From: Beijerinckiaceae bacterium
GTDB lineage: Bacteria > Pseudomonadota > Alphaproteobacteria > Rhizobiales > Beijerinckiaceae
Length of the DNA: 64,000 bases
Assembly (NCBI GenBank): GCA_004564215.1
Contig: CP024846.1
Location: forward strand, 2,617,501-2,681,500
Direction: 5' to 3'
Shown: positions 15,955 to 46,724 of the stretch, piece by piece
How the letters are laid out: each line of letters begins with the position of its first letter
Numbering within the stretch: the stretch's first letter is position 1
Notes under the pieces: model-generated
Seen by the model: only the letters and a program-made list of their open reading frames with translations
Told to the model about the DNA's origin: nothing
The model's database searches: none
Program-made: the position numbers and the translations under genes

Positions 15955-16947
<993 letters not shown>

Positions 16948-16965
16948 CCATTTTAAAAAACACGA

Positions 16966-16991
16966 TCCGGCCCCTTTCAGGAGGGGCCGGA
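16966..16991 (+). promoter_or_regulatory. Stem-loop between nifH and nifD
   Basis: TCCGGCCCCT and AGGGGCCGGA form a 10-bp stem with a 6-base loop. No T-run follows, so it is more likely an mRNA stabiliser or processing element that keeps nifH mRNA high than a full terminator. Confidence 0.7.
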
Positions 16992-17029
16992 CTGCGGCGC
17001 GATAACAGGGATGACAGCGAGGTAGGGCT

Positions 17030-18532
17030 ATGAGCTTGGCTAAAACGGAGAGCGTTGCGGAAATCAAGGCTCGCAATAAGGAACTGATCAACGAAGTCTT
17101 GCAGGTTTATCCTGAAAAGACGGCAAAACGGCGGGCCAAGCACCTCAATGTGCATGAAGCCGGCAAGTCCGATTGCGGCGTGAAGTCCAATCTGAAATCC
17201 ATTCCGGGTGTTATGACGATCCGTGGCTGCGCTTATGCCGGCTCGAAGGGTGTCGTCTGGGGCCCCATCAAGGACATGATTCACATCAGTCATGGGCCGG
17301 TCGGATGCGGTCAGTACTCCTGGGCCGCGCGGCGCAACTATTATATCGGCACGACGGGCATCGATACCTTCGTGACCATGCAGTTTACGTCCGACTTCCA
17401 GGAGAAGGACATTGTTTTCGGCGGCGACAAGAAGCTCGCCAAGATCATGGACGAGATCCAGGAGCTGTTCCCGCTGAACAACGGCATTACGGTTCAGTCG
17501 GAATGCCCGATCGGCTTGATCGGCGACGATATCGAAGCCGTCTCCAAGCAAAAATCCAAGGAATATGAAGGCAAGACCATCGTTCCGGTCCGCTGCGAAG
17601 GTTTCCGCGGCGTGTCGCAATCGCTTGGTCACCATATCGCCAATGACGCGATTCGGGATTGGGTCTTCGATAAAATCAACCCGGATACGCCGGCAAGATT
17701 CGAGTCGACCCCCTACGATGTGGCAATCATCGGCGACTACAACATCGGAGGCGATGCATGGTCCTCACGTATCCTCCTCGAGGAAATGGGCTTGCGGGTG
17801 ATCGCCCAGTGGTCAGGCGATGGCAGTTTGGCGGAGCTTGAGGCGACCCCGAAGGCTAAACTCAATGTGCTGCACTGCTACCGTTCGATGAACTACATCT
17901 CGCGGCACATGGAAGAGAAATACGGGATTCCGTGGTGCGAATATAACTTCTTCGGTCCGTCCAAGATCGCCGAATCTTTACGCAAGATCGCAGCGTTCTT
18001 CGACGACAAGATCAAGGAAGGCGCGGAGCGCGTCATCGCGAAATATCAGCCCTTGATGGACGCGGTCATCGCCAGGTACCGGCCGCGTCTCGAAGGCAAG
18101 ACCGTCATGCTGTTCGTCGGCGGTCTCCGCCCGCGGCACGTGATTGGCGCCTACGAGGATCTCGGCATGGAAGTCGTCGGGACTGGCTACGAATTTGGCC
18201 ACAACGATGACTATCAGCGCACCGCCCAACATTACGTCAAGGATGGCACGCTGATTTACGACGACGTGACCGGCTACGAATTCGAGAAATTCGTCGAAAA
18301 GATCCAGCCCGATCTCGTGGGCTCCGGCATCAAGGAAAAATACGTGTTCCAGAAGATGGGTGTGCCTTTCCGGCAGATGCACTCCTGGGATTATTCCGGC
18401 CCGTATCATGGTTACGATGGTTTCGCGATTTTCGCGCGTGACATGGATATGGCCATCAATGCGCCGATTTGGAAGATGGCGAAGGTGCCGTGGAAGGCAT
18501 CTCCCGAGCCGACGATGCTCGCTGCTGAATAG
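17030..18532 (+). CDS. nifD: Nitrogenase MoFe protein alpha chain
   Basis: The protein has 500 residues. P-cluster ligands are Cys67 (RGCAYA), Cys93 (GPVGCGQY) and Cys159 (SECPIG). FeMo-co is held by Cys283 (LHCYRSMNY) and His451 ([12 protein letters not shown]), and the catalytic His lies in SLGHHIAND near residue 201. All FeMo-co residues of the Mo enzyme are present, so this is a Mo, not V or Fe-only, nitrogenase. It follows nifH after a stem-loop. Confidence 0.99.
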
Positions 18533-18541
18533 GCTTCGTGA

Positions 18542-18571
18542 CCTGGCTCTCCTCGCGTGGGGAGAGCCAGG
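18542..18571 (+). promoter_or_regulatory. Stem-loop between nifD and nifK
   Basis: CCTGGCTCTCC pairs with GGAGAGCCAGG (11 bp, 8-base loop). There is no T-run. It probably stabilises the upstream mRNA or tunes the nifD:nifK ratio. Confidence 0.7.
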
Positions 18572-18610
18572 ACATAACTCTCGCATAGGACAATTGAAAA
18601 GGGCTTCATT

Positions 18611-20170
18611 ATGACCCAGAACGCCGATCACGTGCTCGATCACTTCGAGCTATTCCGGGGTCCGGAATACCAGCAGATGCTGGCGAACAAGAAGAAGATG
18701 TTCGAGAATCCACGCGATCCGGCTGAGGTGGAGCGGATTCGCGAATGGGCCAAGACGCCCGAATATAAGGAGAAAAACTTCGCTCGCGAAGCGCTGACCG
18801 TCAATCCCGCCAAGGCATGTCAGCCGCTCGGCGCGGTGTTTGCGGCGGTCGGGTTTGAAAAAACCATTCCTTTCGTCCATGGGTCGCAAGGCTGCGTTGC
18901 GTATTACCGCAGCCACTTCTCTCGCCACTTCAAGGAACCGAGCTCCTGCGTATCCTCCTCGATGACCGAGGATGCGGCGGTCTTCGGCGGCCTCAACAAT
19001 ATGATCGACGGGCTTGCCAACACCTATCATATGTACAAGCCCAAGATGATTTCAGTTTCCACCACCTGCATGGCGGAAGTGATTGGCGATGACCTTAACG
19101 CCTTCATCAAAACGTCGAAAGAGAAGGGCTCAGTGCCAGCAGATTATGATGTGCCTTTCGCCCATACGCCCGCCTTTGTTGGAAGCCATATCACCGGCTA
19201 CGACAATGTGTTGAAGGGAATCTTCGAGCATTTCTGGGACGGCAAGGCCGGCACCGCGCCAAAGCTCGTGCGCGAACCCAATGAGAAGATCAATTTCATC
19301 GGCGGGTTCGACGGCTACACGGTCGGCAATATCCGTGAGGTTAAGCGCCTGTTCAATCTGATGGGCATCGAGCATACCATTCTCGCGGACAACAGCGATG
19401 TGTGGGACACACCGACCGACGGTGAGTTCCGGATGTATGATGGCGGTACCACGCTTGAAGAAGCGGCCAACGCGGTCCATGCGAAGGCAACCATTTCGAT
19501 GCAGGAGTTCTGCACCGAGAAGACACTGCCCCTCATCGCCGCGCATGGTCATGAAGTGCTGGCCTTCAATCATCCAATCGGCGTGACTGCCACCGACAAA
19601 TTCCTCATGGAAATATCGCGGATCACCGGTAAGGAGATCCCCGAGTCAATCGCGAGGGAACGCGGCCGTCTTGTCGATGCGATTGCGGACTCAAGCGCCC
19701 ATATTCACGGCAAAAAGTTTGCGATCTATGGCGATCCGGATCTCTGCCTCGGTCTTGCTGGCTTCTTGCTCGAACTTGGCGCGGAGCCCACGCATGTGCT
19801 CGCCACCAATGGCGGCAAGACTTGGGTACCAAAAGTCCAGGCGCTCTTCGATAGCTCGCCGTTTGGACAGAATTGCCACGTGTATCCGGGCAAGGATCTT
19901 TGGCATATGCGGTCGCTCTTGTTTACCGAGCCAGTCGACTTCTTGATCGGTAACACCTACGGAAAATATCTGGAACGGGATACGGGCACTCCGCTGATCC
20001 GCATTGGCTTCCCGGTCTTCGATCGCCATCATCACCATCGCTATCCGGTGTGGGGCTATCAGGGCGGCATGAATGTTCTGGTCTGGATCCTCGACAAAAT
20101 CTTTGACGAGATCGATAAAAACACCATCGTTCCGGCCAAGACCGACTTCAGCTTCGATATTATTCGCTGA
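18611..20170 (+). CDS. nifK: Nitrogenase MoFe protein beta chain
   Basis: The protein has 519 residues. The P-cluster ligands fall at the same numbers as in Azotobacter: Cys70 (PAKACQPLG), Cys95 (GSQGCVAYY) and Cys153 ([12 protein letters not shown]). The N-terminal extension that wraps around the alpha chain is present (about residues 1-60). It pairs with NifD in the alpha2-beta2 MoFe protein. Confidence 0.99.
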
Positions 20171-20302: not shown

Positions 20303-21991
20303 ATGAGTTCGCTGTCGGCCACGATCCAGGGAGTTTTTAACGAGCCGGGCTGCGGCAAGAACGCGAACAAATCGGAGGCCGAGCGAAAAAAAGGGTGTAC
20401 CAAGCAGCTGCAGCCGGGAGGCGCCGCCGGAGGCTGCGCATTCGACGGCGCGAAGATTGCCCTTCAGCCCCTCACCGATGTGGCGCACCTCGTTCATGGG
20501 CCGATCGCCTGCGAGGGCAATTCCTGGGACAATCGCGGCGCGAAATCGTCCGGGTCCAATATTTGGAGAACCGGCTTCACGACCGACATCAATGAAACGG
20601 ATGTCGTGTTCGGCGGCGAAAAGCGGCTCTATAGAGCGATCAAGGAAATCATCGAGAAATATAATCCGCCGGCGGTCTTTGTTTATCAGACCTGCGTGCC
20701 GGCGATGATCGGCGATGATATCGACGCCGTCTGCAAAGCGGCCCGCGAAAAATTCGGCAAGCCCGTCATTCCGATCAACTCACCCGGATTTGTTGGACCG
20801 AAGAACCTCGGCAACAAACTCGCCGGCGAGGCCCTCCTCGAACATGTGATCGGGACCGAGGAACCGGACTATACCACTCCCTATGACCTCAACATTATCG
20901 GCGAATATAATCTGTCCGGAGAGCTGTGGCAGGTCAAACCGCTTCTCGATGAATTGGGGATTCGGATTTTGTCCTGCATCTCCGGAGATGGACGCTATCG
21001 CGAGGTCGCCTATTCCCATCGCGCGCGCGCATCGATGATGGTCTGCTCCAAAGCGATGATCAACGTCGCGCGGAAGATGGAGGAGCGCTACGGGATTCCG
21101 TTTTTTGAAGGGTCCTTTTATGGGATCACCGATTCCAGCGACTCCCTGCGCGAAATTGCGCGGATGCTGGTTGAGCGGGGCGCTCCCGACGAATTGATCG
21201 GCCGCACCGAAGCAGTCATCGCCCGCGAAGAAGCACGGGCCTGGGCGGCCATCGCGCCCTACAAGCCGCGTTTCGAGGGTAAAAAGGTTCTGCTCATCAC
21301 GGGCGGCGTAAAATCCTGGTCGGTTCTCGCTGCCTTGCAAGAAGCCGGGCTCGAACTTGTCGGCACCAGCGTCAAGAAATCGACGAAAGAAGACAAGGAG
21401 CGGATCAAGGAACTCATGGGGCAAGACGCCCATATGATCGACGATATGGCGCCGCGTGAAATGTATAAAATGTTGAAGGATGCGCGCGCCGATATCATGT
21501 TGTCGGGGGGCCGTTCGCAATTCGTGGCGCTGAAGGCCTCGATGCCCTGGCTTGATATTAATCAGGAGCGCCACCACGCCTATATGGGCTATGTCGGCAT
21601 GGTGAGGCTCGTCGAGGAAATCGACAAGGCTCTCTACAATCCGATCTGGGAGCAGGTCCGTAAGCCCGCGCCTTGGGAAAATCCGGCCAATAATTGGCAA
21701 GCCAAAGCGATCGCGCAATTGGACGCCGAGGCCGCGGCGCTGGCCGCAAATCCGGAACTTGCTGAAAAAGCCCGGCGCGCCAAGAAAATCTGCAATTGCA
21801 AGAGCGTCGACCTTGGCACGATCGAAGACGCCATTGCCGCTTACGCTTTGGACACGGTCGAGGGAGTCAGGGAAAAGACCAATGCTTCCGGCGGCTGCGG
21901 CGCCTGCGCCGGGCGCGTCGAGGAAATCCTCGCCAGCCTTTCGAGGCCGGAAGACATCCTCTCCATTCCAGCCCTTGCCGCCGCGGAGTGA
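20303..21991 (+). CDS. nifE: FeMo-co scaffold subunit NifE with a C-terminal BFD-like [2Fe-2S] domain
   Basis: The protein has 562 residues, longer than the roughly 470 of Azotobacter NifE. The NifE core has [37 protein letters not shown] and [12 protein letters not shown] as cluster-binding regions. From about residue 490 a tail reads KKICNCKSV, then [16 protein letters not shown]: a CxC and CxxC pair spaced as in BFD-like [2Fe-2S] domains. NifEN matures the NifB-co precursor to FeMo-co. The tail may hold an extra redox or storage cluster. Confidence 0.96.
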
Positions 21992-21994
21992 ACG

Positions 21995-23383
21995 ATGGCT
22001 AAGGTGACAATCGGCAAAAAGGCGTGCGCCGTTAATCCATTGAAGATGAGCCAGCCGATCGGCGGCGCGCTCGCCTTCATGGGCTTGCGTGGCGCCATGC
22101 CGCTGCTGCATGGGTCGCAGGGCTGTACCTCGTTCGGGTTGGTCCTGTTCGTGCGGCATTTCAAGGAAGCCATTCCGCTGCAAACAACCGCGATGAGCGA
22201 GGTGGCCACTGTCCTTGGCGGCCTCGATAACGTCGAGCAGGCGGTCCTTAATATTTACAATCGGGCCAAACCTGAATTGATCGGCATTTGTTCGACGGGC
22301 GTGACGGAAACCAAAGGCGATGACGTCGAGGGATACCTCAAGCTTATTCGCGATAAATATCCAGATCTTGCAAAATTTCCGATGGTTTACGTCTCCACGC
22401 CCGATTTCAAGGATGCGTTTCAGGACGGCTGGGAGAAAACCGTCGCCAGAATGATCGAAGTGCTGGTCGATCAGCCGGGCAATGCGGCGCGGAAGGATCC
22501 GAGCCGGGTCAACGTTCTGCCCGGATGCCATTTGACTCCCGGCGACATCGAGGAACTGCGCATAATCATCGAGGATTTCGGGCTCGAGCCATCGTTCCTG
22601 CCCGATTTGGGCGGATCGCTCGACGGGCATATTCCGGATGAATTCACCCCGACGACGATCGGGGGAATCGGCGTGGAAGAAGTCGCGACAATGGGGTATG
22701 CGTCCTGGACGATCGCGATCGGCGAACAGATGCGGCGAGCCGCCGAAGCGATGGAGAAGAAGGCGGGCGTTCCTTTCAAGCTTTTCGATCGTCTGTGTGG
22801 TCTTTCTCCCAATGATGACTTCATCATGTTTCTGAGCAGCATCAGCGGCAGGCCGGTGCCGATGAAATATCGGCGCCAGCGCGGCCAGCTCGTCGATGCA
22901 ATGCTCGATGGACACTTTCATTTGGGCGGCCGCAAACTAGCCATCGGTGCAGAGCCCGACCTGTTGTTCGACATCAGCAGCATGTTGCACGAGATGGGGA
23001 CCCGAGTTACCGCCGCGGTGACCACCACCGCGTCGCCGGTTCTGGCCCGCGTCGCCGTCGACGAAGTGTTGATCGGCGACCTCGAAGATCTGGAGACCCT
23101 TGCAAAAGACAGGGGGTGCGATCTGCTGATCACCCACTCGCATGGCCGCCAAGGTGCCGAGCGCTTGAAAATTCCCTTCTTTCGCATGGGGCTGCCGATG
23201 TTTGACCGACTGGGTGCCGGGCATCTTGTTTCGGTCGGCTATCGGGGCACGCGCGATCTTATTTTCGGTATCAGCAATCTGATCATTGCGGATGGCGAGG
23301 AAAATCATGAGCCGACACCTGACACGTGGCGGACGCCGGCTGGCTTGGCGGCGGATGCCGCAACGGCCGTATCGACCCATTAG
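21995..23383 (+). CDS. nifN: FeMo-co scaffold subunit NifN
   Basis: The protein has 462 residues. It has the NifK-like fold with KACAVNPLKMSQPIGGALAF and GSQGCTSFGLVLFVRHFKE near the N-terminus and CSTGVTETKGDDVEGYL around residue 90. It begins three bases after the nifE stop, so the two subunits are translationally coupled. NifEN is the scaffold where Mo and homocitrate are added. Confidence 0.97.
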   Translation: MAKVTIGKKACAVNPLKMSQPIGGALAFMGLRGAMPLLHGSQGCTSFGLVLFVRHFKEAIPLQTTAMSEVATVLGGLDNVEQAVLNIYNRAKPELIGICSTGVTETKGDDVEGYLKLIRDKYPDLAKFPMVYVSTPDFKDAFQDGWEKTVARMIEVLVDQPGNAARKDPSRVNVLPGCHLTPGDIEELRIIIEDFGLEPSFLPDLGGSLDGHIPDEFTPTTIGGIGVEEVATMGYASWTIAIGEQMRRAAEAMEKKAGVPFKLFDRLCGLSPNDDFIMFLSSISGRPVPMKYRRQRGQLVDAMLDGHFHLGGRKLAIGAEPDLLFDISSMLHEMGTRVTAAVTTTASPVLARVAVDEVLIGDLEDLETLAKDRGCDLLITHSHGRQGAERLKIPFFRMGLPMFDRLGAGHLVSVGYRGTRDLIFGISNLIIADGEENHEPTPDTWRTPAGLAADAATAVSTH

Positions 23384-28061: not shown

Positions 28062-28520
28062 TCACGCGCTCTTTGGGAGAGCATAGCCAGTCCGGGGATG
28101 TGCCTCGTAATATTCCGGCTTCTCCGGCCATGTCCCGTCCGGCATGAATTTGAACTTCGTTACAGTAACGGGCGCGCCCTGCGAAAATGAGACCTCGCTG
28201 AATTTAACCTCGCGGTCTCCGGGTCCGGCGGAGAAATCTCCCACCACGCTCCCATCCGCTTTGCAAGCGCGCGCAAAGCCGGGTGTGCCGACGCTGCTCG
28301 CCGGCACGGGATTGTCCACGAAAAGAGGGGTTTCAAGTCCCTCGGACTCCGGGCCAAAGGCCGGCGAAGCGAAGGTAAAGGTTGCCAACAGGCCGCTTCG
28401 ATCGACGGAGGCGTCCGGCGTTAATGGCCGCGCAACCGAGTAAACCTTGAGCGTGCCCCCCTCCAAAAGCGCTTTCAGCTCCTCAATCCCGCAATTAGCG
28501 AACGCTTGTGTAACCTTCAC
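28062..28520 (-). CDS. Hypothetical protein, 152 aa
   Basis: I do not recognise this protein. An N-terminal helix (AFANCGIEELKALLEGGTLKVYSVARP) leads into a beta-rich body with LATFTFASPAFG, FARACKADGSVVGDFSAGPGD and VTVTKFKFMPDGTWPEKPEYY. It has two Cys, not in a motif. The fold looks like a small beta-sandwich. It stands alone between the DUF2478 promoter region and a dispersed repeat. Function unknown. Confidence 0.55.
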   Translation of the reverse strand: MKVTQAFANCGIEELKALLEGGTLKVYSVARPLTPDASVDRSGLLATFTFASPAFGPESEGLETPLFVDNPVPASSVGTPGFARACKADGSVVGDFSAGPGDREVKFSEVSFSQGAPVTVTKFKFMPDGTWPEKPEYYEAHPRTGYALPKSA

Positions 28521-29142: not shown

Positions 29143-29318
29143 TTGTTTGGGTTCGTTCGAATGCATCCAATTCAACCTACTCCCAATGCACTGAATATGA
29201 TCGGAAAGGAATTGCTCCTGTGAAAAAGTGAAGCACTAGTTTTGATGGGCAAGGGCCCGCAAGGCTTGCGCGATTCTTGCAAGGTCGCTCCCGCGCGAAG
29301 ATTTGCGGAGATGTAGCA

Positions 29319-30944
29319 ATGCTTGAGACGGCAATCATTGGCGGCGGATTATGCGGCCTCAGCTTGGCCGCGAGCCTGCATCGGCAAGGCGATTTTCTGC
29401 TGTTCGATGCGCGGACCCGGTTGGGGGGGCGCATTCTCACCGAGTCTTGCGCGCGGTCGGGCACGGCTGATCTGGGGCCCACCTGGTTCTGGCCGGACAC
29501 CCAGCCGCTGGTCACGCAGCTCATCGCCGATCTTGGACTCGCGGACTTTCCGCAACATGATGATGGCACGGTGCTGCACCTCCGTGATCCCGACAAGACA
29601 CCCGAACGGTTGGAAAACCAAGGCGTGCACAGTGGAGCCCGCCGCCTGACCGGCGGCATGGGAAGCCTGGTCGATGGTTTGGCGAAGGACCTGCCCCTGG
29701 AAAAATTACGGCTTGGCCATGTTTTGACAGGTCTTCAAAATCGCGGGGATCATATTGGGCTGATTTTTCGATTTGAAGATCAATTTATCGAGCTTGCGGC
29801 GCGCCATGTGGTTCTTGCCCTGCCGCCTCGGCTCGTGGAGGAGAACATCCGCTTCGAGCCGGAGCTCGACGTCCCCGTGCGCGATGCCATGCGCGCGACC
29901 GAGACCTGGATGGCTGCGCAGGCAAAGGTAGTGATCAGTTATGAACAAGCGCTCTGGCGGGACGAAGGCAAGTCCGGCAATGCCTTTGTCACGCATGAAC
30001 AGGCGGTGATCGGCGAGATTTTCGATGCTTGCGATTCGACCGCCGCCCAACCTGCTTTGGGGGGATTTCTTGCGCTGTCGCCGGAGCTACGCGACTCTTT
30101 CAGAGGAGGATTGCCCCTGCTCATGGGCAATCAAATGGCTCAGGTGTTTGGTCCGGAGCTTGAGGATGGGGAGCAGCATTATCAGGACTGGGCAAAGGAG
30201 CCCTATACATGCAGCACCTTGGATCGGACCGCATCGAGGACCGAGCATGCGGGCTTCGCTAATCCTCTTCTGCGCCGGGCCATATGGGACGGAAAGCTCT
30301 ATCTGGGCGGTTCGGAAACCGCGTCCCATGGGAGTGGTTACCTTGAAGGCGCGATCGAGGCGGCAAGGCGGATCGATCGTGAACTCACACGCGCCTGGGT
30401 CGCCAAGGGGCAGGGGACATCGACCGTTCTCCACGACGGCGCCGAGGCCCCCCTCACCGACTCTATGAATGCCGCAAGTCTCGCCCAATTTCGCGATTGG
30501 GTGGTGTTGCAGGGCGATGTTGCCTTCGACAGCTATCGTCACCGCCTTAACCGCAGTCTTTCTATTCAGCAGCGGGATCAGCTTACCCAGCGGGCGATCC
30601 TGGGGTCGATTGAGGAAATCTATAGTAAGGCCTTGGCCCTCCTCGACGATTTACCTTTCGACATGAAGGAGGTGCGGGTCGAGCGCGGCCGGTCGGCAAT
30701 GACGCCGGATGTGCAGGCTCCATTCCGCTCCTTCATGCAAAACTTGCTGGATGATGTCGTTGCGTTCAACGCGACATCTTGTGCACTGTCGAACTTCCCG
30801 GATGAGCATCATCCGCCGAAGGACTATATGCAGACGATTCTGCGGGACATGGCTGCCGCCTGGCAGGAGTTCTCCTTGGCGGCCAACGCGCTGCTTCTGA
30901 GCAAAGGGCAAGCGCAGGATCGCCCGCAACGGAAGATGATGTGA
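29319..30944 (+). CDS. FAD-dependent amine oxidase-like protein with C-terminal extension
   Basis: The protein has 541 residues. The FAD-binding motif AIIGGGLCGLSLAASLHRQG is at residues about 5-24, followed by LLFDARTRLGGRI. LGPTWFWPD and the closing FAD motif LYLGGSETASHGSGYLEGAIEAA (around residue 335) are as in monoamine oxidases. About 170 residues follow that look helical and match no domain I know. GGAG lies 8 bases before the ATG. It is 28 bases from a Rieske gene, so a flavin/Fe-S electron chain is a reasonable inference. Confidence 0.8.
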   Translation: MLETAIIGGGLCGLSLAASLHRQGDFLLFDARTRLGGRILTESCARSGTADLGPTWFWPDTQPLVTQLIADLGLADFPQHDDGTVLHLRDPDKTPERLENQGVHSGARRLTGGMGSLVDGLAKDLPLEKLRLGHVLTGLQNRGDHIGLIFRFEDQFIELAARHVVLALPPRLVEENIRFEPELDVPVRDAMRATETWMAAQAKVVISYEQALWRDEGKSGNAFVTHEQAVIGEIFDACDSTAAQPALGGFLALSPELRDSFRGGLPLLMGNQMAQVFGPELEDGEQHYQDWAKEPYTCSTLDRTASRTEHAGFANPLLRRAIWDGKLYLGGSETASHGSGYLEGAIEAARRIDRELTRAWVAKGQGTSTVLHDGAEAPLTDSMNAASLAQFRDWVVLQGDVAFDSYRHRLNRSLSIQQRDQLTQRAILGSIEEIYSKALALLDDLPFDMKEVRVERGRSAMTPDVQAPFRSFMQNLLDDVVAFNATSCALSNFPDEHHPPKDYMQTILRDMAAAWQEFSLAANALLLSKGQAQDRPQRKMM

Positions 30945-30972
30945 GATGGCAGCTTGCTTGAACGAGGACACA

Positions 30973-31395
30973 ATGAACTCAGATGTTGCTTATGCAATTT
31001 GCAGCATGAATGACATTCCCAGCCAGAAGGCCAGGGGTTTTCAGCTGATGCGCGTCGGGGAGGATGGCACCAACCGGCCGTGGCACATTGTGGTGATTCG
31101 ATGGGGCCGGCAGGTGTTTGGTTATGTCAACAAATGTCCCCACGATGGGGTCAATCTCGACTGGGAGCGAAACCAGTTTTTGGATCCGAATGGCATCCGC
31201 CTGATGTGCGGCAAACATGGTGCGCTGTTCGAACTAGGGACCGGCACCTGCGTCGACGGGCCCTGCAAGGGCCGGAGTTTGACACCCGTGGCCCTGACCA
31301 TTTTGGACAATGACATCTGTGTCACGGGTGTAACGCTTGTCGAGGAAGACGATAGCATTGAGGACGAAGAGATTGCAGACGAAGAGAAGGCCTGA
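30973..31395 (+). CDS. Rieske-type [2Fe-2S] protein (copy 1)
   Basis: The protein has 140 residues. The Rieske ligands are CPHDG and, 22 residues after the Pro-His pair, LMCGKHGALFELGTG. The C-terminal tail is strongly acidic (EEDDSIEDEEIADEE). It resembles NirD/bacterial Rieske ferredoxins and the second copy at 55166-55615 (same VNKCPH/VNTCPH, GTCVDGPCKG/GLCVDGPCKE). It follows the amine-oxidase-like gene and ends 29 bases from a convergent gene. Probably a soluble electron carrier for that flavoprotein. Confidence 0.87.
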   Translation: MNSDVAYAICSMNDIPSQKARGFQLMRVGEDGTNRPWHIVVIRWGRQVFGYVNKCPHDGVNLDWERNQFLDPNGIRLMCGKHGALFELGTGTCVDGPCKGRSLTPVALTILDNDICVTGVTLVEEDDSIEDEEIADEEKA

Positions 31396-31424: not shown

Positions 31425-32015
31425 TCAAACCGGACGATTCTCATTCCGATTCTTGACCGGCTCCATGAGTGCCAGTCCTTGTTCGTAACTGATGTTCTCA
31501 TATTTTGCATCTAGGCCGATTGCGGCATCGAGAAGGTAATCCAGCTTTCCCGCTGTATCGAGCTTCTTGATGTCGTTCTTGTCGATGCTCATGAGATCCA
31601 GCATTTCCTTCCATACGGTGGATTCGTCGCAGGGCAGGACGGTGAAGGTAATGCCGTCGTGGGTGACGCGGTACTTCGCCAAGAGATCAATGTTGTTGCA
31701 ATACATGAAATAGGTTCCTGTGGGGCTCAGGAGGCCTTTGAGAACCCCGGTGACCGACTCCAGATAGGCGAAGGAATGGAGGTAGCCGGCGAGAATAGGG
31801 ATCGTCGTTTCCCCTTCCTCCGCGATGGTCAGAACCTGTTCGATGGAAAAATCCGGCGGCCGTTTTTCATCCGCTACCTGCGCTTGGAATTTCAGCGCGA
31901 TGTCACCTCGAAATCCAAATCGGCCAGGCTTCTTAGTGGGGCTCTTAAGGACCGCATTGAGGAGGCGTCCCTCCTGATCAAGGCGGCCAAGGGGGGTCTT
32001 CTCAATCGTTGTCAT
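31425..32015 (-). CDS. Uncharacterised 196-aa protein, divergent partner of the AAA ATPase
   Basis: I do not recognise this protein. It has alternating strands and helices: LTIAEEGETTIPILAGYLHSFAYLESVTGVLKG (in part), TYFMYCNNIDLLAKYRVTHDGITFTVLPCDEST, and a helical end with KLDYLLDAAIGLDAKYENISYEQGLALM. There is no metal motif or membrane segment. GAGGA 7 bases upstream marks the ATG at 32015, seven codons after another ATG. A sigma-54 promoter faces it, back-to-back with that of the AAA ATPase, which suggests joint work. Confidence 0.6.
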   Translation of the reverse strand: MTTIEKTPLGRLDQEGRLLNAVLKSPTKKPGRFGFRGDIALKFQAQVADEKRPPDFSIEQVLTIAEEGETTIPILAGYLHSFAYLESVTGVLKGLLSPTGTYFMYCNNIDLLAKYRVTHDGITFTVLPCDESTVWKEMLDLMSIDKNDIKKLDTAGKLDYLLDAAIGLDAKYENISYEQGLALMEPVKNRNENRPV

Positions 32016-32075
32016 GAAGATTTCCTCAATTGTCATCGAATTGGCAGGGCTGCGCGCTGCGGCGCAAGCGCCCCA

Positions 32076-32091
32076 TGCAAATGATCTGCCG
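32076..32091 (-). promoter_or_regulatory. Sigma-54 promoter of the 196-aa gene
   Basis: On the minus strand CGGCAGATCATTTGCA has -24 GG, -12 TTGCA and 10-base spacing; the leader is about 50 bases. It is divergent from the promoter at 32096 with only four bases between the elements. Confidence 0.6.
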
Positions 32092-32095
32092 GTTT

Positions 32096-32111
32096 TGGCG
32101 CGAGGCGTGCA
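32096..32111 (+). promoter_or_regulatory. Sigma-54 promoter of the AAA ATPase gene
   Basis: TGGCGCGAGGCGTGCA keeps -24 GG, -12 GC and spacing, with T to G at the first base of the -12 box. The ATG at 32161 follows after about 38 bases. No perfect NifA site was found nearby. Confidence 0.55.
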
Positions 32112-32160
32112 AGCCTGGTGAAACCGACACTTTGTCTGTCGCACGAACAGGCGCACAAGC

Positions 32161-33864
32161 ATGAAACTTCAGATCGAACGGCCCTTTGTCGAAACCTTGG
32201 TCGCGGCCTTCCCGGATCTCTCGCCGTTGAAGGAACAGCTGCGATTTGGCGATAAAGTCGAAGTCCCGTTCCACCAGCTTTCGAGTGCCGAACTCACCTT
32301 CCTGCAGAGCTTATATCTGGATGCTGGGCCGAAGATGCAGGCCAGCTTTGCCCATATCGCAACACTCCAGCGAGCCTTCAACGACAACGGCGTAAGGTTC
32401 ACGGCCGAGGATCTGGAGTCGGTGCTGCCGGCGATCGCGCGCTATTTGGTCGCAGATGCGATCCGGGGCTGGATGTTCACTGCCAATGTGGCGAGCCGGC
32501 CGCTGCCCTATGCGGTCACAAGGCTCGATTACACGCCGCCCTCCAACGATGAGACAGGGCGCGTGTTCATCGAGCTGAAGGCCAACGCCAAGGGCGCGAT
32601 CACCTCGGCGACGCTGAGGATTTCTGCCGGCGACATTGTTGGTAAAACAATCGGAGAGATTTTTGCAGCCAAGGGATTTTTGAAGGAAACCCCCGAGCTC
32701 ATTGCCGCCTATGACGAGACCGAGGCGCGCTATTTTGACTGGCGCGCCCGCTACGGCTCTCAGTTCTCCGGCAAGGGAACAGGATTTTACACGGATGATC
32801 CAAATTCATCTCACCGGGATGTGGATTGGTCCCGCAAGGACGTGGTCGTCCTCGCCTCCGGTGGCGGCACCGCCCGCCTCGTCAATGACGAAAGCATTTT
32901 GACAACCCGTGCCCTGACGCTCGATGTCACGGGAGACATCCTCGGGCAATATTTGAGAAAGGCCGCAAAGAGCAATTTATACAATGCCGAGGACGAGGTC
33001 GAAGAATCCAAAGCCGCCATCGGCAAAGGCCTGTTCTGCCGTATTCCCGTGCACGCCTATATTCTTATGTTTCACCTCGACCTGCATCATTATTTGTGGG
33101 TGCATGTCGACGATATGACACCTTACGCCTATCAGCCGGACTTAAAACAAAAGCTGATTTTGCCCGAGGAACAAACCGATCTCATCGACATACTGACGGC
33201 CGAAATGGACATCTTGATGGATGACATTATCGCCGGGAAGTCGGGAGGGACGACGGTTCTCTGCGCCGGCCCGCCGGGGGTCGGCAAGACCTTAACGGCC
33301 GAGGTCTATTCGGAGATCATCAAACGGCCCCTCTACCGGGTTCATTCCGGTCAGCTGGGTCTCAATGTCGCGGCCATGGAGGCCGTTCTAAAGGACACTT
33401 TGACGCGGGCTCAGCGCTGGGGCGCGGTGATGCTCATCGATGAGGCGGATGTTTACATCAAGCGTCGCGATGACGACATTCAGATGAATGCTGTCGTCGG
33501 CGTGTTCCTCCGAGTCCTTGAATATTTCAACGGGCTTTTATTTCTGACCACCAACCGCATCGACGATATTGATGAAGCGATCGTGTCACGCTGCATCGCC
33601 TTGATCAAATTCTATCCCCCCGACAACGTCGCGCGGCGCAAGATTTGGACGGTGATGACCGAACAATTCGGGCTGACCGTTGACCGGCTGCTCGTGGACC
33701 AGCTGACCGAAACATTTCCGGCCGCGAGCGGTCGCGATATCAAGGGCTTGGCAAAGCTTGTCGCAAAATATTGCCATCACAAGCAGGTCCGTCCTTCCTT
33801 GGAAGTCTTCAAGCGATGCTCGATCTTTCGAGGGATGGATCTCGATGAACAATTGGCCCCGTGA
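32161..33864 (+). CDS. AAA-family ATPase of the nif island
   Basis: The protein has 567 residues. Residues about 1-365 form a region with no domain I know, alpha/beta with a VLASGGGTARLVNDES stretch. The AAA module follows: Walker A AGPPGVGKT near residue 370, Walker B VMLIDEADV near 422, sensor-like FLTTNRIDDIDEAIVSRC, and a helical lid. The GPPGxGKT and TTNRxDxID pattern matches classical AAA remodelling ATPases rather than sigma-54 activators (no GAFTGA). It may remodel a nitrogenase or electron-transfer protein; this is inferred from its promoter and context. Confidence 0.75.
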   Translation: MKLQIERPFVETLVAAFPDLSPLKEQLRFGDKVEVPFHQLSSAELTFLQSLYLDAGPKMQASFAHIATLQRAFNDNGVRFTAEDLESVLPAIARYLVADAIRGWMFTANVASRPLPYAVTRLDYTPPSNDETGRVFIELKANAKGAITSATLRISAGDIVGKTIGEIFAAKGFLKETPELIAAYDETEARYFDWRARYGSQFSGKGTGFYTDDPNSSHRDVDWSRKDVVVLASGGGTARLVNDESILTTRALTLDVTGDILGQYLRKAAKSNLYNAEDEVEESKAAIGKGLFCRIPVHAYILMFHLDLHHYLWVHVDDMTPYAYQPDLKQKLILPEEQTDLIDILTAEMDILMDDIIAGKSGGTTVLCAGPPGVGKTLTAEVYSEIIKRPLYRVHSGQLGLNVAAMEAVLKDTLTRAQRWGAVMLIDEADVYIKRRDDDIQMNAVVGVFLRVLEYFNGLLFLTTNRIDDIDEAIVSRCIALIKFYPPDNVARRKIWTVMTEQFGLTVDRLLVDQLTETFPAASGRDIKGLAKLVAKYCHHKQVRPSLEVFKRCSIFRGMDLDEQLAP

Positions 33865-33971: not shown

Positions 33972-33987
33972 TGGCACGCCGCTTGCC
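33972..33987 (+). promoter_or_regulatory. Sigma-54 promoter of hesB-nfu-nifS-nifV-cysE-nifW
   Basis: TGGCACGCCGCTTGCC is a full consensus match; the hesB start follows after about 28 bases from the expected transcription start. Confidence 0.92.
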
Positions 33988-34026: not shown

Positions 34027-34350
34027 ATGATTAACCTGACCGACAGCGCATTGGAAGCGGTGCGGAGCGCGATCCAGGGTGCCTCCGAGCCCGTTGGCGG
34101 ATTGCGCATCATGGTCGAGGCCGGTGGCTGCGCCGGCAACAAATATATGATGGGCCTCGTCAATGAGGCCGAGCCGGACGACACCGTCGTCGAGCGCGAC
34201 GGCGTGAAAGTATTTGTCGACATGAATAGCCACGATCTCCTCGCCGGCACGACCATCGACTTCGTCGTGGCGCTGGAAGGTTCGGGGTTCACATTCGAAA
34301 ACCCGAATGCAACGGCGAGTTGTTCTTGCGGCAAGTCATTCGGCTCCTAA
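34027..34350 (+). CDS. iscA: HesB/IscA-family Fe-S carrier (nif type)
   Basis: The protein has 107 residues. It has the A-type carrier fold with GGLRIMVEAGGCAGNKYMMGL (first Cys near residue 37), VKVFVDMNSHDLLAGTTIDFV, and the C-terminal pair in ATASCSCGKSF. All three ligand Cys are present. Relatives called HesB, IscN or nif-IscA lie beside nifU/nifS. It is the first gene of the operon that continues with nfu and nifS, so it likely carries clusters for nitrogenase maturation. Confidence 0.92.
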   Translation: MINLTDSALEAVRSAIQGASEPVGGLRIMVEAGGCAGNKYMMGLVNEAEPDDTVVERDGVKVFVDMNSHDLLAGTTIDFVVALEGSGFTFENPNATASCSCGKSFGS

Positions 34351-34392
34351 CGCGCGACTGTTTGAAGCCCGTCAAAAAGTGAAGGCAGAGTC

Positions 34393-34683
34393 ATGCTGGT
34401 TGAATCTGAGCAGGTAGGCCAAGTCCCGACAGCAGAGGCGGATCGGATCCGGCTCATCATGGAAGTCATCGAGGAAATCCGTCCGAATTTGCGCCGGGAT
34501 GGGGGCGACTGCGAACTCGTCGAGGTTTGCGGCAACAAGGTTATGGTCAAGCTCACCGGCGCCTGCGTGTTCTGCAAATTGAGCAGCGCGACACTCGAGG
34601 GCATTCAAACCCGTATTGTGGAAAAGCTGGGCGAGTTCGTGCGCCTTGTTCCGGTCATGGGCGGGGTCAAGGCCGCGCATTGA
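34393..34683 (+). CDS. NifU C-terminal-domain protein (Nfu type)
   Basis: The protein has 96 residues. IRPNLRRDGGDCELVEVCGNKVMVKLTGACVFCKLSSATLEG (in part) is the NFU domain; CVFC holds a [4Fe-4S] cluster. The N-terminal scaffold and central ferredoxin-like domains of full NifU are missing: only 42 bases separate it from hesB, so they are not encoded upstream. It acts between IscA and NifS as a carrier. With no full-length NifU in the window, the Suf system may do the scaffold work. Confidence 0.92.
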   Translation: MLVESEQVGQVPTAEADRIRLIMEVIEEIRPNLRRDGGDCELVEVCGNKVMVKLTGACVFCKLSSATLEGIQTRIVEKLGEFVRLVPVMGGVKAAH

Positions 34684-34695
34684 AAGAGGCGTGCC

Positions 34696-35895
34696 GTGGG
34701 ACCGATCTATCTGGACAATAATGCGACAACTCGCACGGACCCTCGGGTCGTCTCGGCGATGCTGCCGTATTTTACCGAACAGTTTGGCAACGCGTCGTCC
34801 ACTCACGCCTTCGGCACAGAGGTCGGCGGGGCGCTGAAACAGGCTCGCCAGCATTTGCAGGCCCTGCTCGGGGCGGCGTTCGACCACGAGATCATCTTTA
34901 CCTCCGGTGGCACGGAATCCGACAACGCAGCGATTCTTTCAGCGCTTGAAGCGCAGACGGACCGGGATGAAATCGTCACGACGAGTGTCGAGCACCCGGC
35001 CATTCTGGCGCTCGTGGCCCATCTGGAAAAAACTCGCGGAATTAAGGTTCACGTGATCCGCGTCGATGGCCGCGGTCGCCTGGATCTTGACTCCTATAAG
35101 GCCGCGCTTGGGCCGCGAACCGCGATTGCATCGGTCATGTGGGCCAACAATGAGACCGGAACCTTGTTTCCGGTGGCAGAGCTGGCTGCGCTCGCTCATG
35201 CCGCTGGTGCGCTGTTCCATACCGATGCGGTGCAGGCGGTCGGCAAGATTGCGATCGACCTAAAAGCCACCGAAATCGATATGCTTTCCCTGTCGGGGCA
35301 CAAGCTGCACGGGCCGAAAGGAATCGGCGCGCTTTATGTCCGAAAGGGCGTCAAATTCAAACCGCTGATCCGGGGCGGCCACCAAGAACGCGGCCGGCGT
35401 GGCGGAACGGAAAACGCCCCGGCGATCATTGGGCTTGGCAAGGCTGCTGAACTCGCGAGCGCTTACTTGGAAGAGGAGCGCCTCCGGGTCGGCGCCCTGC
35501 GCGACCGGCTCGAGCGGGGGCTGCTGCAGATCGGCCATTGTTTCGTGACGGGAGACGAACAGAACCGGCTGTCGAATACCTGCAACATCGCCTTTGAATA
35601 CATCGATGGCGAGGCCATCCTCCATAACATGAACAAGGAAGGCATCGCGGCGTCATCGGGCTCGGCCTGTACCTCGGGCTCGACTGAACCGTCCCATGTC
35701 TTGCGCGCGATGGACGTCCCTTCCACGGCCCTGCATGGCGCCATCCGCCTTTCCCTGTCCCGCGAAAATTCCGACGGGGACGTCGATCGGGTTCTCGAAA
35801 TATTGCCTGGCATCATTACAAAGCTGCGGGAACGGTCGCCGATGTGGCAAGAGCGCCAAACGAGTGCCGAGCTTCACGTCTCGAATTACGCGTGA
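34696..35895 (+). CDS. nifS: Cysteine desulfurase NifS
   Basis: The protein has 399 residues from a GTG start with AGAGG 6 bases upstream. [13 protein letters not shown] opens the PLP fold, TSVEHPAI has the stacking His, [18 protein letters not shown] the Schiff-base Lys, and [18 protein letters not shown] the mobile-loop Cys of class I enzymes. It provides sulfur for nitrogenase Fe-S clusters through the Nfu/IscA neighbours. Confidence 0.97.
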
Positions 35896-45851: not shown

Positions 45852-46724
45852 ATGAATGCGCCAATCTCTCCGCCCGCCGAAATGTTGAAGCTGGCAGACG
45901 CGGAGGCTGAGCTTGCCGCTCTCGCCGCTCCCTTGCGCGCCGGCAAGATTGTTCCCTATCTTGGGCCAGCAATTTCCTTGCTCTCAAATCCTCAAGTTCC
46001 CATGACGCCGGAGGCGCTTGCGGAGTTCTTCGGGACCAAGGTCGCGCTGCCGCGCCGCGCCAGGGGCAATGCCTGGGCGTCGGCCCAGCATATTGAGAGT
46101 TTTAAGCATCGTTCCACCTTATCGGCCTTGATGGGCCAAGCCTTCGCTACGCCGGTCGAACCGACGCCTTTTCATCGCTATCTTGCGTCGCTCCACCTGC
46201 CGATGATCGTCGACACATGGTACGACGGAGCCATGCGCGCGGCGCTCGCCTCGGAAACCGGCTGGGGAGAAATCCAAGGGATTACGCGCGCCGGAATCGG
46301 TGAAAGCCGTTGGTATCGCTTTTATGACCCGGCAGGGGTTGAAACAGATCATACGGCGGCGGAAACATGGGCGACGCTTCTTTACAAGCCGCATGGCAGC
46401 GTTACGCCCGCGAAGAACTTCCTAATCTCGGATGCTGACTATGTCGAGGTTCTGACGGAGATTGACATCCAGACGCCCATCCCCGACATCGTGAAGGATC
46501 GACGCACGGAACGAAGCTTTCTGTTCATCGGCTGCCGTTTCCACGATCAGCTTCTGCGCACCTATGCGCGGCAGGTCGCCAAAAGATCGGCGGCGACGCG
46601 TTATGTTATCGTCGAACCAGATAGCCTGACCAAGAATGAGGTTCGCTTCTTTATCGCGCAAGGCTTGACGCCCATTGGAGTGCCGCTGGCCCGTGCGATA
46701 GAGATTCTGACCGAAGCAGCCTGA
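45852..46724 (+). CDS. SIR2-like protein of the nif island
   Basis: The protein has 290 residues. It has an [16 protein letters not shown] segment similar to the NAD-binding GAGxS region of SIR2-like proteins, [19 protein letters not shown], and [23 protein letters not shown], then [16 protein letters not shown]. The catalytic His of deacetylating sirtuins is in a YKPHGS context as in SIR2_2-type NADases. It follows nifT by four bases. A role in NAD handling or defence is possible; the nif operon position argues for a nitrogenase-linked role. A terminator follows. Confidence 0.72.

Follow-up and report, generated by a model that had tools for sequence, protein, structure and literature searches.

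The locus

We analysed a stretch of 64 kb (hereafter the window; CP024846.1, positions 2,617,501 to 2,681,500) out of the 3.33-Mb, one-contig genome of a Beijerinckiaceae bacterium. The window holds a molybdenum nitrogenase cluster, the nif genes of which were named from Pfam matches together with gene order, and it contains the two divergent genes considered here, one for an AAA+ ATPase and one for a 196-residue protein without a named fold, to which we give the label SML (Table 1). The mechanically called open reading frame of SML is longer (to 32162, 245 residues), but the alignment with homologues begins at the ATG at 32015.

Table 1. Features of the ATPase and SML locus and of the surrounding nif cluster, in window coordinates
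Feature	Position	Strand	Remark
AAA+ ATPase gene, 567 aa, ATG start	32161..33864	+	nif-linked relative of phage/plasmid family phrog_29662
ATPase N-terminal region, residues 1-365	32161..33255	+	alignable with phage/plasmid relatives, best from residue ~85
Pfam AAA domain PF00004, residues 366-482	33256..33606	+	E 1.2e-16
Sigma-54 -24/-12 element of ATPase gene	32096..32111	+	TGGCGCGAGGCGTGCA
Sigma-54 -24/-12 element of SML gene	32076..32091	-	CGGCAGATCATTTGCA
SML gene, 196 aa	31425..32015	-	no named fold; linked to one NifD lineage
SML C-terminal tail codons	31428..31460	-	PVKNRNENRPV; conserved
nifHDK	16063-20170		Pfam and gene order
nifEN	20303-23383		Pfam and gene order
Flavin amine-oxidase-like gene	29277..30944	+	Pfam; neighbour
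Rieske [2Fe-2S] protein gene	30946..31395	+	directly after amine-oxidase-like gene
Sigma-54 element before iscA/nifU/nifS-like run	33972-33987
iscA-like, nifU-like (NifU domain only) and nifS-like genes	34027..35895	+	downstream of ATPase gene

The two genes are separated by a spacer of 145 bases containing two sigma-54 elements that lie, as claimed in an earlier note on this DNA, only four bases apart (32092-32095). Within this spacer alone the elements are moderately unusual (P = 0.014 and 0.052 against Markov shuffles). The same divergent order is however found in eight other alphaproteobacterial loci, and when seven of these are aligned with the window two blocks stand out, TGGC(g)CG-type-N-TGC on the + strand and CGGC-N-TTTGCAT on the other, the remaining spacer being scarcely alignable; it is this conservation that makes the window elements firm. 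The eighth locus (L006), with a spacer of 744 bases, was excluded from the alignment, and its top site on the ATPase side is a different one, at -133, but with L006 included the SML-side element reaches p <= 0.03 in 8/8 loci. Sigma-54 control of the window pair is well supported.

An ATPase with phage and plasmid relatives

The AAA domain of the ATPase is recognised by Pfam at 61.7 bits, against a curated cut-off of 21.2. Residues G370, G375-T377, D427, E428, N465 and R477 are invariant in 11/11 aligned family members, and we take K376/T377 to represent Walker A, D427/E428 Walker B, N465 the sensor-1 asparagine and R477 the arginine finger; since these catalytic residues are invariant, the protein would be expected to be an active ATPase.

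The earlier note described the N-terminal region as having no known domain. This holds for Pfam and NCBIfam, which give none, but it misses the phage family phrog_29662, which matches residues 85-560 of the ATPase (profile positions 89-546 of 548, E 3.3e-108) and leaves only the first 84 residues outside. What is new here is thus that the ATPase, including most of its N-terminal region, matches a phage family, and that the sampled nif-linked copies form one clade. The phrog_29662 proteins, among them relatives at 40% identity in the Bacillus phages AR9 and PBS1, and the plasmid proteins resemble the ATPase in length and in the combination of an N-terminal region with a C-terminal AAA domain, share its catalytic residues and are about 32-44% identical to it over long alignments, but they differ from it in their long branches and in the near absence of sigma-54 elements. 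Homologues of the ATPase number in the thousands (1763 and 4643 found). In IMG/VR we found 132 stretches with relatives of the ATPase, of which 80 were kept, and a further 156 plasmid records carry such relatives. The nif plasmid of Methylococcus sp. EFPC2 stands at 78% identity and the others at under 60%, the best relative after EFPC2, among the matches listed, being at about 41%. No nif genes were seen in six plasmid and phage regions read around ATPase relatives. The wider family is mostly one of viruses and plasmids. In a sample of 387 genomes from the phylum it was present in nine, namely the window's own, five at 53-76% identity to it and three at 34-39%.

In two trees the nif-linked ATPases make up one side of a fully supported branch (Shimodaira-Hasegawa-like approximate likelihood-ratio test 100 with 23 rows; 100/100 with 16 rows). 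The stem of this nif clade measures 1.2-1.3 changes per column and lies inside a well-supported larger group together with phage and plasmid rows, and the end branches are short in the nif clade (about 0.08-0.4) and long in the mobile rows (about 0.5-3). This pattern fits one recruitment out of mobile elements, with strong constraint thereafter. Both the single event and its direction are inferred, the direction because both trees were rooted at the midpoint and contain few chromosomal members from outside nif. A phage contig of 5.3 kb from IMG/VR (L107) carries an ATPase fragment that is 59% identical to the window over residues 314-559 only and 59-62% identical to nif-clade members in the AAA part, closer than any mobile row of the trees; DNA-polymerase- and exonuclease-like genes, named by eye, lie on the same contig.

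The phage and plasmid relatives also differ from the nif clade in their promoters. When 250 bases upstream of each ATPase gene were scanned and scored against shuffles, a sigma-54 element was found in 28/79 nif-clade loci at p <= 0.05 and in 20/79 at p <= 0.01, but in only 1/59 and 0/59 of the phage and plasmid loci, respectively (Fisher 3e-7 and 8e-6). Loci without core nif genes in their flanks are among those with an element (L033, L039, L040, L062, L064, L067, L068 and L079, for example).

Association with nitrogen fixation

Besides the phylum sample, occurrence was examined in samples of the family (149 genomes, where the ATPase search used the N-terminal region), the order (249) and the class (289). 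In the family sample the ATPase is present in 23 genomes and NifD in 27, with 21 having both (Fisher p 3.5e-18, uncorrected for kinship). Two ATPase carriers lack NifD, yet show other genes of the cluster beside SML, nifA and nifB in G327 and nifV, fixAB, iscA and SIR2 genes in G335, which is 78% complete. In the order sample NifD occurs in 44 genomes and the ATPase in three, all of them with NifD, and in the class sample the N-terminal region was found in 1/289, the window genome itself.

Beyond these samples we collected 80 ATPase loci from named genomes and searched 50 of the genomes for NifD, 44 of which had shown no core nif gene in the flanks of the ATPase. NifD was present in 46/50, at 76-96% identity (two partial), and the four exceptions, two with a NifE-like match only and two with none, are all metagenome bins, one of which (G715) is by its coordinates the same genome as G335. 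The link of the ATPase to nif genes, which the earlier note had wished to see examined by gene neighbourhood and co-occurrence, is thus borne out, and the homologues found without nif genes, the finding that would have counted against that link, are distant phage and plasmid members with full-length identities of up to 44% and do not belong to the close clade. The ATPase almost always accompanies nitrogen fixation, but a nitrogen fixer need not have it.

The carriers span alpha-, beta- and gammaproteobacteria. On the 89.6-kb plasmid of Methylococcus sp. EFPC2, nifHDK, nifEN, SML and the ATPase are all aboard, with the ATPase following the run iscS-iscU-erpA-iscA-hscB-hscA-fdx-nifV-nifW-...-grxD-bolA. 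In the approximately 50 kb of it that were read (L097, L098), nifX, nifQ, nifL, a glutathione S-transferase (GST) gene, a Rieske gene and clpXP were also seen, and this plasmid may offer a natural example of a compact nitrogen-fixation gene set.

Methanotrophs and their relatives make up many of the carriers, and at 50/80 loci core nif genes are absent from the sampled flanks, so one may ask whether the ATPase serves a shared trait, such as the use of methane and other one-carbon compounds or life at low oxygen, and is linked to nitrogen fixation only indirectly. We consider this improbable, since the carriers also include Bradyrhizobium, Azorhizobium, Derxia, Zoogloea and Ferrovum, and since absences run together among close relatives: within the window's genus, G388 is without NifD, ATPase and SML alike, and G307 likewise lacks all three while its congeners G346 and G401 have them.

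That the ATPase is a defence or mobile-element gene carried as a passive passenger in nif islands is a notion that stems from the phage and plasmid members of its family, from the SIR2_2 gene in the same cluster and from the resemblance of its AAA part to the IetA/TRIP13 defence ATPases. This resemblance is limited to residues ~327-538 and leaves the N-terminal region unmatched, and the identification as an IetA anti-phage ATPase was rejected, as the corresponding equivalog model scores 39 bits, against a curated 510, in the AAA domain only. Furthermore, the slow evolution of the nif clade, its sigma-54 elements and its co-occurrence with nif genes over alpha-, beta- and gammaproteobacteria are in poor agreement with a passenger, which makes this the least probable of the explanations considered, and by our estimate a very improbable one.

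The SML protein

SML is tied to a particular nitrogenase. In the order sample it is found in 11/249 genomes, which are exactly those 11 with a NifD at least 84% identical to that of the window, and in 0/33 of the remaining NifD genomes (NifD at 75-80%). Likewise, in the family sample it occurs in 22/23 genomes with NifD at 86% or more and in 0/4 with NifD at 76-78%, as well as in G327 and G335. Among 236 plasmid records with NifD, 16 have it at 80-90% identity to the window's, and SML is present in 8/16 of these and in 0/220 of the others, in addition to two records with other nif genes. Among the 50 searched ATPase genomes a clear SML (at least 42% identity) was found in 35 and a distant relative (25-29%) in five. 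SML thus tracks one nitrogenase lineage more than it tracks the ATPase. We also observed that plasmid NifD sequences fall into two groups, at 80-90% and 60-80% identity to the window's, with SML only in the first, and that eight peanut Bradyrhizobium plasmids of the first group show no SML.

The C-terminus of SML is conserved. All of the 120 closest homologues (120/120) end in NRPV and 104/120 in PVKNRNENRPV, and all 22 untruncated copies of the type found in the window (type 1) that were taken from loci, the window included, in alpha-, beta- and gammaproteobacteria, end in NRPV. The tail is absent from two paralogues and from a second, gammaproteobacterial type of SML. In the structure model residues 191-196 have a predicted local distance difference test score (pLDDT) below 50, a low confidence that would indicate flexibility, and conservation together with predicted flexibility suggests a docking peptide. 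Genomes without the ATPase retain the tail, which makes another Nif protein its probable partner.

Whether the two genes form a pair, as the earlier note put it, depends on where one looks. In the window and the eight alphaproteobacterial loci mentioned above, type-1 SML and the ATPase are transcribed divergently. The distant type (about 189 residues, ending VGAI) shares the strand of the ATPase and lies 90-356 bases upstream of it, as seen in 11 gammaproteobacterial loci, and by hhalign it is homologous to type 1 (probability 97.8, E 1.1e-12, 163 columns). In the family sample the ATPase is present in 23/24 SML genomes, but in the order sample 10/11 SML genomes lack it, which speaks against a dedicated pair, and of the plasmids with SML 1/10 carries a close ATPase, in a count restricted to the plasmid records. 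The order of the window minus the ATPase gene is seen in G465 (L104; Rieske, SML, iscA, nifS) and on a plasmid of Bradyrhizobium sp. BWA-3-5 (L186; Rieske, SML, iscA, nifU, nifS). Nonetheless there are two distinct arrangements in which an SML relative lies next to the ATPase, and some link is therefore likely: of the proposed pair, the dedicated partnership does not stand, but a functional contact that is not obligatory likely exists.

SML can have its own sigma-54 element: G465, a genome without the ATPase, offers one example (L104) and a symbiotic Bradyrhizobium plasmid another (L096), and gammaproteobacterial relatives at L054, L058 and L061 have one too; at seven SML loci no such element was found directly upstream. 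A second SML-like gene without the NRPV tail is present in the window genome (G000:C1:1705932-1706456; locus L083, 6933-7472), where it adjoins thiC-like and ABC-transporter genes, named by eye, and is preceded at a distance of 191 bases by a good sigma-54-like element (p 0.003). Second matches of this kind occur in 19 genomes of the family sample, all of which also have SML.

Neighbouring genes

In addition to the genes of Table 1 the cluster contains a DUF269 gene, nifQ, iscA-, nifU- and nifS-like genes, a homocitrate-synthase-type gene (nifV) and a hexapeptide transferase gene, as well as fixAB, nifA, a SIR2_2 gene, nifB, TPR and LRV-FeS genes, a DegT aminotransferase gene and a 2Fe-2S ferredoxin gene. 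The amine-oxidase-like family recurs in the sampled flanks of 22/80 ATPase loci, some of them distant from nif, and was also seen in Bradyrhizobium sp. BTAi1 and its relatives, at loci that have no core nif gene nearby, together with SnoaL-, GST-, ankyrin- and SagB-like genes (named partly by eye). Other families that recur in the flanks are an ankyrin protein (27/80 loci), a GST (26/80), a FAH-family protein (16/80) and a small zinc-ribbon protein (16/80), the names being given by eye from the sequence or taken from the annotation of L098; examples are found at L024, L031, L043 and L098. The SIR2_2-domain protein (45852-46724), which lies within the nif cluster, has homologues in the ATPase flanks of 13 loci and others that adjoin nif genes on rhizobial plasmids. 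A 152-residue protein without a Pfam match (28062-28520) has homologues at 60-70% identity near nif genes in 5/80 loci.

Possible functions

No study recognised as dealing with the ATPase gene was found in the open-access literature, nor any phenotype in print, which agrees with the claim of the earlier note that the roles of both genes are undescribed. The nearest hint in print is azo3791 of Azoarcus BH72 (PMC3916325). This gene is reported to encode an ATPase, to lie apart from the nif cluster, to have predicted sites for RpoN and NifA and to be regulated in its expression, but it could not be matched to the gene considered here.

Nitrogenase requires many helpers, not all of which have been identified, and the ATPase is probably an unstudied one. 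As to its mode of action, we give about an even chance to an ATP-driven remodeller of a client in the nitrogenase system. Its lineage would have moved from phrog_29662 into the sigma-54-controlled nitrogen-fixation regulon of Proteobacteria, the N-terminal region would bind the client, be it a structural protein, a maturation protein or a donor complex for Fe-S clusters, and the AAA ring would alter the conformation or assembly state of this client during maturation or repair. SML would then be a separate nif accessory protein that, in genomes with both, may be an adaptor or a co-client of the ATPase. A hint towards Fe-S assembly comes from gene order, the ATPase being followed by iscA-, nifU- and nifS-like genes in the window and preceded by an isc-hsc run in EFPC2. 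Dedicated AAA+ remodellers encoded beside a metalloenzyme are known from the Rubisco activase CbbX and from the CbbQ/NorQ-type activators. The likeness of our ATPase to these, which the earlier note raised for Rubisco activase, would be one of proposed working mode. No such model appears among the NCBIfam matches at E <= 1; CbbX is absent among the 21 matches at this level, from which HMMER filters drop weak matches. The nearest solved structures by sequence are those of classical AAA ATPases of the VCP-like, Cdc48 and proteasomal kinds, by the AAA domain only, and compared with these the window ATPase has one AAA domain, another N-terminal region and a pore loop 1 without an aromatic residue.

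Several observations weigh against the remodeller proposal. Six of the 27 NifD genomes in the family sample (G303, G318, G380, G390, G419 and G423) and 41/44 in the order sample are without the ATPase, and a close copy is found on 1/236 NifD-bearing plasmids; with so many diazotrophs lacking it, the ATPase is therefore not a general nitrogenase requirement. Core nif genes lie within the sampled flanks of just 30/80 ATPase loci, and 51/79 loci have no detected sigma-54 element, although in at least some of these the ATPase gene is preceded by others on its strand. Between 28034 and 33105 there is no exact NifA upstream activator (TGT-N10-ACA), and the support for sigma-54 control does not extend to NifA. 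G726 and G729, two members at 53-54% identity, lack a sigma-54 element, and with chromosomal non-nif members thinly sampled the mobile origin rests mainly on the phage and plasmid rows. Finally, the predicted structure of the ATPase is of low confidence (pLDDT 55), and at pore loop 1, positioned by alignment to a VCP-like ATPase, no aromatic residue is found at 398-405 in the window protein or at 401-402 in 11/11 members. An aromatic residue is usual here in threading ATPases, and classical threading is therefore not supported, but some AAA+ remodellers do without it.

The missing aromatic also bears on a function in quality control, whereby the ATPase would unfold or take apart nitrogenase or Fe-S proteins that have been damaged, for instance after exposure to oxygen, so that they can be reused or proteolysed. 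The intact AAA+ active-site residues are in keeping with such a role, the phage relatives are annotated as ATP-dependent proteases, and the nif cluster of the NodA-positive G465 has no ATPase at the usual spot, as would fit a need relieved by the nodule. However, the ATPase is also missing from nine NodA-negative NifD genomes and present in one NodA-positive genome, the phage annotation seems to be based on the ATPase domain, and no protease is found among the recurrent neighbour families named by eye, many families being unnamed. As for a protease family in the ATPase itself, Pfam and NCBIfam show only hits to models of FtsH and Lon, far below cut-off and within the AAA part, although the protein may yet contain an undescribed protease fold. 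Quality control seems on balance unlikely.

A regulatory switch, in which the ATPase reversibly activates or inactivates nitrogenase or a nif regulator according to the energy or nitrogen status of the cell, would make sense of the nif linkage and sigma-54 control of the ATPase and of the conserved, docking-like tail of SML. Yet neither Pfam nor NCBIfam reveals a modifying domain in the ATPase, and we regard such a switch as a rather remote prospect. We therefore place remodelling first, followed in descending order by quality control, the indirect link through a shared trait, the switch and the passive passenger.

A more far-reaching form of the remodeller proposal, in which a phage- or plasmid-type ATPase was domesticated just once and became, under sigma-54 control, a dedicated nitrogenase remodeller across the Proteobacteria, with SML, by its docking-like tail, as its adaptor or client link in one nitrogenase lineage, is more doubtful and is put forward tentatively. 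For the present the locus is best filed as a sigma-54-controlled nif accessory ATPase of probable phage or plasmid descent together with a small protein specific to a nitrogenase lineage, and not as an obligate pair. Two nif-linked genes are thereby brought to attention, an ATPase present in many alpha-, beta- and gammaproteobacterial diazotrophs and an SML tied to one nitrogenase lineage, and the gene order without the ATPase in some symbionts provides a natural comparison. Should the ATPase indeed remodel a nitrogenase protein, it would clearly exemplify how an ATPase of mobile elements can become the helper of a metalloenzyme.

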